A stretch of 44,959 nt of DNA from Kalymmatonema hyalinum WJT4-NPBG1 (GTDB lineage: Bacteria; Cyanobacteriota; Cyanobacteriia; Cyanobacteriales; Nostocaceae), in contig JAHHIB010000072.1 of NCBI GenBank assembly GCA_019359075.1, positions 1 through 44,959 on the forward strand, given 5' to 3'. Within the stretch, counting starts at the first letter, position 1. Each line of letters begins with the position of its first letter. Under the pieces are notes generated by a model. It ran no database searches and was not told the origin of the DNA. It saw only the letters and a program-made list of their open reading frames with translations. A program made the position numbers and the translations under genes. Positions 1 to 25,123 of this stretch are shown here, in pieces.

Positions 1-70
1 AGTATTGGTAGATGCACCCTGATAACTGACACCCCTGGCTAGCTACTAGCCACTTGGGGTTTTTTATTTT
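1..70 (+). ncRNA. nsiR1: NsiR1-like small RNA, copy 1 (promoter cut off by window edge)
   Basis: This is the first of two near-identical 70-nt units (1-70 and 135-204, period 134). The expected transcript runs from about 12 to 66. It ends in a terminator hairpin: ACCCC at 31-35, TGGCTAG at 36-42, loop CTA, CTAGCCA at 46-52, then GGGGT at 56-60 and a T-run. The tandem arrangement, the roughly 55-60 nt size and the wording of the 5' part (TGCACCCTGATAACTGACA) match my memory of NsiR1, the nitrogen-stress-induced, heterocyst-specific RNA encoded as tandem repeats next to hetF in Nostoc/Anabaena. More copies, and hetF itself, probably lie left of the window. The identification rests on recall and was not searched. 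Confidence 0.72.
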
Positions 71-104
71 TTACACCAACATCCCCAGAATTTTAGCGTT
101 TTTG

Positions 105-139
105 TCCGGAACCTACTGGTTTTTTCGAGAACATAGTAT
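105..139 (+). promoter_or_regulatory. DIF-type (TCCGGA) promoter of NsiR1 copy 2
   Basis: TCCGGA lies at 105-110 and a TAGTAT -10-like hexamer at 134-139, which would place the transcription start near 146. TCCGGA near -35 is the DIF+ motif of heterocyst-specific promoters in Anabaena, NsiR1 being the type example. The two hexamers are 23 nt apart, longer than a sigma-70 spacer, which fits a motif centred near -38 rather than a standard -35 box. The equivalent promoter of copy 1 lies outside the window. Confidence 0.65.
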
Positions 140-204
140 TGGTAGATGCACCCTGATAACTGACACCCCTAGCTAGCTACTAGCTACTTGGGGTTTTTTA
201 TTTT
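135..204 (+). ncRNA. nsiR1: NsiR1-like small RNA, copy 2
   Basis: This second repeat unit has its own TCCGGA promoter upstream, and the expected transcript is about 146-200. The terminator hairpin is ACCCC at 165-169, TAGCTAG at 170-176, loop CTA, CTAGCTA at 180-186, GGGGT at 190-194, then T6. Compared with copy 1, the stem pair G37-C51 has become A171-T185. This is a compensatory change, so the RNA structure appears to be under selection. The RNA points toward the thioredoxin-like gene at 323; its terminator ends about 120 nt before that start codon. Confidence 0.75.
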
Positions 205-322
205 GAACAAAATAACCGCAGCTGCAATTCTTAATATTTTTTCTATAATTTTTTGCTTTGTATATTGGTATCTTACTGTTTGAGTCAAAAGCTAGTGCTA
301 GTACCTAGAGAGTTGCAGAGCC

Positions 323-649
323 ATGAATTTAGCTGTCATTAAGTTTTCTTCAGAAGACTGCGGTCTATGCCACAAGATGTCTTTCTATGACAAAAAGGTG
401 GCTGAAGAACTGGGCTTGCAATTTATTGATGTGAAAATGCAGGATACAGCTACTTACCGCAAGTATCGTAAAATTCTACTGACTCAGTATCCAGATAAAT
501 CAGAAATGGGATGGCCGACCTACATTGTTTGTGATTCGCCAGAAGGAGAATTTCAGATTTTGGGTGAGGTTAAAGGTGGTCATCCCAAAGGGGAATTTAG
601 AAGTCGGCTGCAAGAAGTTCTGAATTCAGAAGCGTCTAACCAGAACTAA
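323..649 (+). CDS. Small thioredoxin-fold protein (CGLC motif)
   Basis: This 108-residue protein has an N-terminal beta strand (LAVIKFSSEDC) followed by a CxxC motif, CGLC at residues 13-16. A cis-Pro segment (GWPTYIV, about residues 63-69) follows, which is the layout of a single thioredoxin domain. There is no signal peptide, so it should act in the cytoplasm, probably as a thiol-disulfide reductant or thiol carrier; the partner is unknown. It is the first gene downstream of the NsiR1-like repeats and on the same strand. A TATAAT hexamer at 244-249 could be its own -10 box, without a convincing -35. Its last 14 bases overlap the convergent gene ending at 636. The fold is confident, the specific role is not. 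Confidence 0.8.
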   Translation: MNLAVIKFSSEDCGLCHKMSFYDKKVAEELGLQFIDVKMQDTATYRKYRKILLTQYPDKSEMGWPTYIVCDSPEGEFQILGEVKGGHPKGEFRSRLQEVLNSEASNQN

Positions 650-3395: not shown

Positions 3396-3479
3396 AGATA
3401 GAGTGCAAAAGTCAATTGGATGAAAATGAAACCACAGATGAACAACGGACACTTGCTATCTCCTATGTCCTGAGCCCTG

Positions 3480-3700
3480 AGTCCTTACGGACACGCTGCG
3501 CGTTGGCGGAGCCTGCGCTTTGCGCTTACGGGCACGGCTTGAGGCCGAACGGACACGCTACGCGTTCACGAACGAAGTGTGCGCTTTGCGCTTACGGAGA
3601 CGCTGAGTCCCTTGCGGGACACGCTGCGCGAACGCGAACAACGGGGGGAACCCCCCGAAGTTTGCAAAGGAGGAAACCCTCCTTGCAACTTCTCTCCGCA
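3480..3700. repeat. Cluster of dispersed GC-rich palindromic repeats
   Basis: The 3396-3845 spacer holds no convincing gene. It contains tandem variants of a GC-rich palindromic repeat (ACGGACACGCTGCGCG, GCGCTTTGCGCTTACGG) and hairpins such as GGGGGGAACCCCCC near 3646. An AGGAGG/CCTCCT stem inside TTGCAA lies at about 3660-3690. Open frames on both strands here are by-products of the repeats. Similar repeats occur near 6956, 17880, 32460 and 40150. This is the interspersed-repeat type common in Nostocales genomes. Confidence 0.75.
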
Positions 3701-5748: not shown

Positions 5749-6222
<474 letters not shown>

Positions 6223-21259: not shown

Positions 21260-21332
21260 CCAGGGTTGGCCGAGCGGTTGAGGCAGCGAACTCATAATTC
21301 GCGTTAGGCAGGTTCAACTCCTGCACCCTGGA
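21260..21332 (+). tRNA. trnI-CAU: tRNA-Ile (CAU anticodon, lysidine type)
   Basis: A 73-nt cloverleaf can be drawn: acceptor CCAGGGT/ACCCTGG, D-arm GCC/GGC, anticodon arm GCGAA-CTCATAA-TTCGC giving anticodon CAU, T-arm GCAGG-TTCAACT-CCTGC, discriminator A. CCA is not encoded. CAU could mean Met, but the body closely follows plastid trnI-CAU (GGTT in the D-loop, AACTCATAATT in the anticodon arm). I therefore call it the isoleucine tRNA whose C34 is converted to lysidine by TilS to read AUA. Confidence 0.88.
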
Positions 21333-23640: not shown

Positions 23641-25114
<1,474 letters not shown>

Positions 25115-25123
25115 TGGGAATTG

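Follow-up and report, generated by a model that had tools for sequence, protein, structure and literature searches.

The first 204 nucleotides of the window (the whole 44,959-nucleotide stretch of Kalymmatonema hyalinum WJT4-NPBG1 DNA that was analysed) are best explained, with a probability of roughly 85%, as the terminal pair of units in a hetF-linked NsiR1 array, which would be HetR-dependent, would act through pairing of its 5' segment with targets and would belong to a family of RNAs sharing one seed. The feature had been correctly recognised as the end of an NsiR1 array and adds a member to a known RNA family. The array alone does no more than add a strain to those with a known regulator; of greater importance is the wider result concerning HetR and the RNA family. 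At that level the balance tips slightly towards NsiR1 being one branch of an ancient HetR-linked RNA family, whose members share a single 14–17-nt 5' pairing segment, and not a heterocyst invention. The likely founder would be the single copy between lgt and cobM, which is seen in several families; the tandem expansion beside hetF, together with other lineages carrying other terminators or (in the argJ-linked case) another promoter, would have reused the segment, thereby connecting one seed to several control inputs.

Two NsiR1 copies at the contig end

Pairwise comparison within the window revealed that the units at positions 1–70 and 135–204 are identical at 68 of 70 positions with a spacing of 134, as an earlier note on this DNA had described, and that the 64 bases downstream of each copy are in agreement at 19 of 64 positions. 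The assignment of both units to NsiR1 in that note was confirmed by an Rfam search, in which model RF02399 matched each of them well above its curated cut-off of 39 bits (Table 1); the repeat unit measures approximately 70 bases and the Rfam match approximately 60. The tandem arrangement that characterises NsiR1 is represented by the two copies present in the window.

The only two differences between the units (G37/A171 and C51/T185) constitute one stem pair, as had also been noticed previously, and the same hairpin, followed by six T residues, was folded in both copies with the pairs 37–51 and 171–185 formed. The fold z-scores are modest, amounting to −1.99 for copy 1 (−18.6 kcal/mol) and −1.48 for copy 2 (−16.6 kcal/mol). 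The proposal that both units end in intrinsic terminators is upheld as regards the hairpins and the T residues, but a simple scan of window positions 1–400 found no terminators, with the caveat that the stem contains a bulge. Similarly, no sigma-70 promoters were found by a scan of positions 1–400, with the caveat that DIF1 promoters are not of the scanned type. Furthermore, the stem change had been called direct evidence for a selected RNA structure, which is too strong a wording, as a single compensatory pair in two copies constitutes weak evidence for such a structure. A copy in a close relative carries G and T at the two variable stem places and possibly represents a G-U intermediate of the change. 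The consensus obtained with RNAalifold for 236 distinct non-first copies was poor (−2.6) because the hairpins vary in length and align badly; the pair of the window is absent from this consensus, and several stem columns display more than two standard pair types.

With regard to transcription, the TCCGGA box that had been placed before the second copy was indeed located at 105–110, and the GGTAG of this copy starts 36 nt downstream, at 141. In relatives, TCCGGA lies 35–37 nt upstream in 225 of 330 non-first copies. Given the positions of TCCGGA and GGTAG, the transcript of copy 2 probably starts at approximately 140–141, and not near 146 as had been suggested. The upstream part of copy 1 lies off the contig, and a DIF1 box is visible for copy 2 only. 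It could be argued that the window copies are debris of a decayed array that has lost transcription or function, as they are situated at the far end of the array, where divergent copies are also reported in PCC 7120 (PMC9045159), as no promoter is visible for copy 1 and as the z-scores of the folds are not pronounced. Such decay is highly improbable, however, since both copies carry the exact 5' segment, the box of copy 2 is intact and the stem pair has changed on both sides, and the end of an NsiR1 array remains the preferred reading.

Table 1. Features at the array end (window positions)
Feature	Position	Strand	Basis
TCCGGA, DIF1-type −35 element of copy 2	105..110	+	Position; spacing in copies of relatives
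NsiR1 copy 1, farther from the trx-like gene, promoter outside the window	7..66	+	RF02399 match 6–67, 54.1 bits
NsiR1 copy 2, nearest the trx-like gene, array end away from hetF	141..200	+	RF02399 match 140–201, 56 bits; gene order in relatives
Conserved 5' segment (proposed pairing seed), copy 1	7..23	+	Exact GGTAGATGCACCCTGAT in 245/330 non-first copies of relatives
Conserved 5' segment (proposed pairing seed), copy 2	141..157	+	As for copy 1
Terminator-like hairpin and T run, copy 1, with G37-C51	31..65	+	Fold; missed by simple scan
Terminator-like hairpin and T run, copy 2, with A171-T185	165..199	+	Fold; missed by simple scan
108-aa ORF marking the array end, trx-like by eye	323..649	+	ORF list; anchor for 80 relatives

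Elsewhere in the window, imperfect G+C-rich direct repeats with a spacing of 62–66 nt (3478–3639), an ORF that by eye resembles a PII nitrogen regulator (5791–6222), a tRNA gene (21260–21332, plus strand) and a TPP riboswitch (25028–25120, minus strand) were observed.

The array in relatives and its link to hetF

The array is cut by the contig end, because the window represents the entire contig C62 and starts at contig base 1. The earlier expectation that hetF would follow to the left is borne out in part: hetF was identified near the end of contig C159 (minus strand, 392 nt between start codon and contig end), in a suitable orientation and with 93% identity to hetF of Tolypothrix campylonemoides VB511288, and the array stands beside hetF in 41 relatives, but the join is not assembled. 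Joining C159 to the window was attempted without success: no overlap of 12–299 bases links the contig end near hetF with the first bases of the window, and the terminal part of C159 could not be aligned with either of the two nearest named relatives. Its last 392 nt, next to hetF, yielded no exact seed core. The further copies that had been predicted to the left are likewise expected, since the contig starts at base 1 and the arrays of the two nearest named relatives contain runs of N (1115 and 2958), though the contig breaks off at this point.

Eighty named relatives were fetched via the 108-aa gene, representing the best 80 of 250 loci. At least one copy was found upstream of the trx-like gene in 58 of these best 80 relatives and none in the other 22, a copy being counted with up to three mismatches in 17. 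hetF is visible beside the trx-like gene in 42 of the best 80, and in all but one of these (41/42) copies are located between the two genes. The hetF-proximal copy reads GGTAGATGCACCTTGAT in 39 of the 41 loci, while the other (non-first) copies carry the exact GGTAGATGCACCCTGAT in 245 of 330 cases; judged by this segment, the window copies belong to the GGTAGATGCACCCTGAT kind and not to the hetF-proximal kind. The recurrence of GGTAGATGCACCTTGAT in 39 of 41 hetF-proximal copies matches the functional split between NsiR1.1 and NsiR1.4 that has been reported (PMC9045159); the same work describes different targets for copy 1 and the central copies in PCC 7120.

Sibling RNAs and the company of HetR

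The RF02399 search returned ten matches in this genome, namely the two in the window, one on C89 (51.4 bits), one on C31 (44.4 bits) and six on C58, the last of which scored 33.1–37.9 bits, below the cut-off. The same kind of search in 14 control genomes yielded one match, in E. coli, which was also below the cut-off. This genome contains eight exact occurrences of the 16-nt core GTAGATGCACCCTGAT and two more with one mismatch, and when up to two mismatches were permitted 15 matches were obtained, as opposed to one for the reversed control. The siblings possess a common 5' segment and differing hairpins; as far as their sequences tell, NsiR1 is part of a wider set of RNAs with a near-invariant 5' end (GGUAGAUGCACCCU) and varied terminators.

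The sibling on C89 is a single NsiR1-like RNA located between lgt and a divergently oriented cobM (L016:2962–3012; G000 C89:23461–23511). Loci of this cobM-linked type were read, among the matches listed, in 51 of 60 own-family genomes searched, one per genome, and in all 51 of them TCCGGA is in place and cobM divergent, at a median distance of 80 nt (range 47–521). Across the order, 87 of 291 genomes contain the pattern of this type (at most two mismatches), including all 29 of the own family. In families f3, f15, f18 and f33, 30 loci were read, of which 26 include a divergent cobM on the stretch; three of the other four show lgt and one is at a contig end, and single loci from f2, f4 and f9 have the same neighbours. 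Full-text searching, with most subscription papers outside its reach, found no literature report of this cobM-linked sibling, which lends itself to specific probing or deletion. As an observation in its own right, a genome without a HetR match harbours a cobM-linked RNA (L300:546–595) that keeps TCCGGA and has a changed 5' segment (GGTAGATGCACCGGAC), as if it were decaying. The occurrence of several loci per genome and of tandem arrays might also bring to mind a mobile or selfish repeat that spreads itself. This is scarcely credible, however, given the fixed places of these RNAs between lgt and cobM in every own-family locus read, and beside cobM in most loci of the four families named above; additionally, window positions 120–204 have no match in plasmid or phage collections, and spread by either vehicle was discounted on that ground. 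A family of RNAs with a shared seed and settled positions is thus the reading that is retained.

Two further siblings were distinguished. The single RNA on C31 (L015:3182–3233; G000 C31:29181–29232) has TCCGGA 36 nt upstream, and similar copies occur in other own-family genomes among the matches listed. The type on C58 consists of five tandem copies near argJ that lack a DIF1 box (L013:3339–3960; G000 C58:10338–10959), a sixth copy elsewhere and a degenerate seventh, and a G+C-rich inverted repeat is situated upstream of the −10-like box of the array. The pattern of this argJ-linked type (at most three mismatches) was found in at least 110 of 118 own-family genomes, had no matches in the control genomes and is not confined to genomes with a HetR match; argJ is nearby in 19 of 22 own-family loci and in none of five others. 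TCCGGA, exact or one mismatch off, was found in none of the 48 copies of this type that were read, which were counted without a box-based definition of the type (28 loci given, one dropped as identical); an earlier box count was discarded as circular, the type having been defined partly by its missing box. A −10-like sequence, by a loose pattern, is present in 45 of the 48 copies. Separately, a seven-copy NsiR1-like array in an own-family genome (L214:827–1590) was observed to carry TCCCGA or TCCTGA instead of TCCGGA.

These siblings bear on an alternative according to which the 5' segment is kept since DIF1-type transcription needs this initial sequence, and not for target pairing. The presumed start site does coincide with the beginning of the segment, and TCCGGA stands at a fixed distance from most copies that possess it. 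The argJ-linked type, however, keeps GTAGATGCACCCTGATGA despite its missing box, and the conserved patterns reported for 58 DIF+ promoters aligned to +40 are located at −35, around −10 and at the start site (PMC6133370), making this alternative unlikely. From the common 5' end, combined with differing promoters and terminators, we infer that the 5' end of the RNA is the part under selection, as would be anticipated for a shared pairing seed.

The distribution of these RNAs was assessed in a sample of 291 genomes drawn from the order. NsiR1 was detected at E ≤ 0.001 in 198 genomes and over the cut-off in 181 (a set made by hand from the best E-values, with 17 weak ones left out, its size being the tally of the tool), HetR (PF03574) in 163 and HetP (NF037966) in 119. 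Every one of the 163 HetR genomes has the RNA at E ≤ 0.001, as do 35 of the 128 without HetR; over the cut-off the numbers fall to 161 and 20, respectively. When the over-cut-off matches are divided further, the RNA accompanies HetR together with HetP in 81/81 genomes, HetR only in 80/82, HetP only in 2/38 and neither in 18/90; by occurrence, NsiR1-type RNAs follow HetR and not HetP. Counted by family, 18 of 18 with HetR have the RNA as against 2 of 15 without (Fisher p 1.8e-7, a value that takes no account of the tree), the family labels having been read by hand from the RNA and HetR match lists. An exact TCCGGA copy is present in 71 of 75 HetR genomes and in 2 of 14 others, this tally covering the genomes with loci read (75 of the 163 with HetR, and 14 of the 35 that have an RNA match but no HetR) and leaving out G174, in which the 5' segment is mutated. 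The HetR gene of the present genome resides on contig C100, and heterocyst formation is not deducible from the presence of HetR or HetP alone.

The 20 over-cut-off genomes without HetR comprise ten in f32, six in f18 and four (G008, G144, G199 and G258) from families otherwise with HetR, in which HetR may have been missed, unassembled or lost. The six f18 genomes read TGCGGA, and G073 and G090 of f32 read TCCTGA or TCCCGA. HetR is present in G029 and G053, which have only the argJ-like RNA type, and in G005 and G023, where none of the copies read carries an exact box; in G174, TCCGGA is present in the absence of a HetR match. The company of the RNA and HetR could simply reflect shared ancestry of filamentous lineages with no functional link, as the genomes sampled are related and as the f32 and f18 genomes, as well as G174, separate the RNA or its box from HetR. 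This explanation carries appreciable weight, although it is considered rather unlikely in view of the difference between families with and without HetR, the opposite behaviour of genomes with HetR only and HetP only, and the concentration of the exact box in HetR genomes.

If the HetR-linked family is real, HetR would have a measurable output in an RNA that exceeds the Rfam cut-off in 161 of the 163 HetR genomes sampled and is often accompanied by a DIF1-type box, and in species without heterocysts such RNAs would provide a concrete output for studying the action of HetR. The role of hetR and patX in filamentous species without heterocysts has been called a mystery (PMC11298460). Possible surprises for specialists are the shared-seed family, its cobM-linked member and the near-complete company with HetR, even where HetP is absent.

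Proposed action, targets and known systems

Under nitrogen starvation, HetR would turn on DIF1 promoters via HetZ in the future heterocyst, as suggested by work on PCC 7120, including that on HetR/HetZ transcription in the differentiating cell (PMC7377430, PMC6133370), and by conservation. The multiple copies would increase the RNA dose, and the 5' segment would pair at the start region of target mRNAs and block translation, while the hetF-proximal copy, with its own conserved form of the segment, would be antisense to the hetF leader; both start-region pairing and antisense action on hetF have a basis in published work (PMC9045159, PMC3141674). Because siblings elsewhere in the genome reuse the same 5' segment, the array would be one output of a shared-seed family. 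In PCC 7120, altering or removing the −10 box of nsiR1.1 is reported to cause little change in the hetF promoter-gfp signal (PMC8406250), which by analogy would speak against a strong effect on hetF.

Pairing was evaluated with the first 26 nt of the window RNA against 20 HetP loci from eight genomes (20 read of the 27 matches tallied in those genomes) and 79 control leaders; leader types were assigned after the leaders had been viewed and start codons were chosen by script, so that all ranks are descriptive. The sole HetP-family gene found in this 95%-complete assembly displays no pairing with the window RNA (descriptive rank 79 of 79), and the eight hetP-type loci, that of this genome included, are unremarkable (descriptive ranks 52 to 79 of 79). 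In a wider test, one hetP-type leader (L329) pairs strongly but far upstream, at approximately −115. Among 12 non-hetP-type leaders of the HetP family, eight have a descriptive rank of 5 or better against the 79 controls, seven of these eight pairings being near or over the start codon, and four are unremarkable. The gene behind one of the eight top-ranked leaders begins Met-Tyr, as the text on alr3234 implies (PMC9045159). By these comparisons, targets of the published kind can be recognised in other genomes but not in this one. The pairing with a hetP-like (alr3234) leader, which was not found in this genome, concerns a reported PCC 7120 target and not a defining feature of NsiR1 (PMC9045159). 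As the HetP gene here lacks pairing, the target in this strain would be another gene, or would lie in the missing part of the 95%-complete assembly.

NsiR1 of Nostoc sp. PCC 7120 (RF02399) and the present array are alike in the model match, the tandem copies, the DIF1-type box and the terminator-like hairpin, and the layout with hetF is alike in relatives of this strain. They differ in that the PCC 7120 array is reported to have 12 copies (PMC9045159), whereas two are seen here up to the contig end, and in that only one HetP-family gene, without pairing, was found here. RNA162 of Limnospira indica PCC 8005, compared by description only, is a 57-nt RNA reported to be NsiR1-like, and its host forms no heterocysts; an NsiR1-like RNA in a non-heterocyst former has thus already been published (PMC8400943). 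The sRNA 4547237r of PCC 7120, of approximately 51 nt, was seen in stationary phase and long nitrogen starvation (PMC4734099), and at a guess, made from its description and not its sequence, it may be the argJ-linked type. Finally, patX is a DIF1-promoter gene in HetR-bearing filamentous species with or without heterocysts (PMC7761841, PMC11298460, PMC7377430); PatX is a small protein, characterised by RG(S/T)GR, unlike the NsiR1 RNA, and represents a parallel case of DIF1 control.
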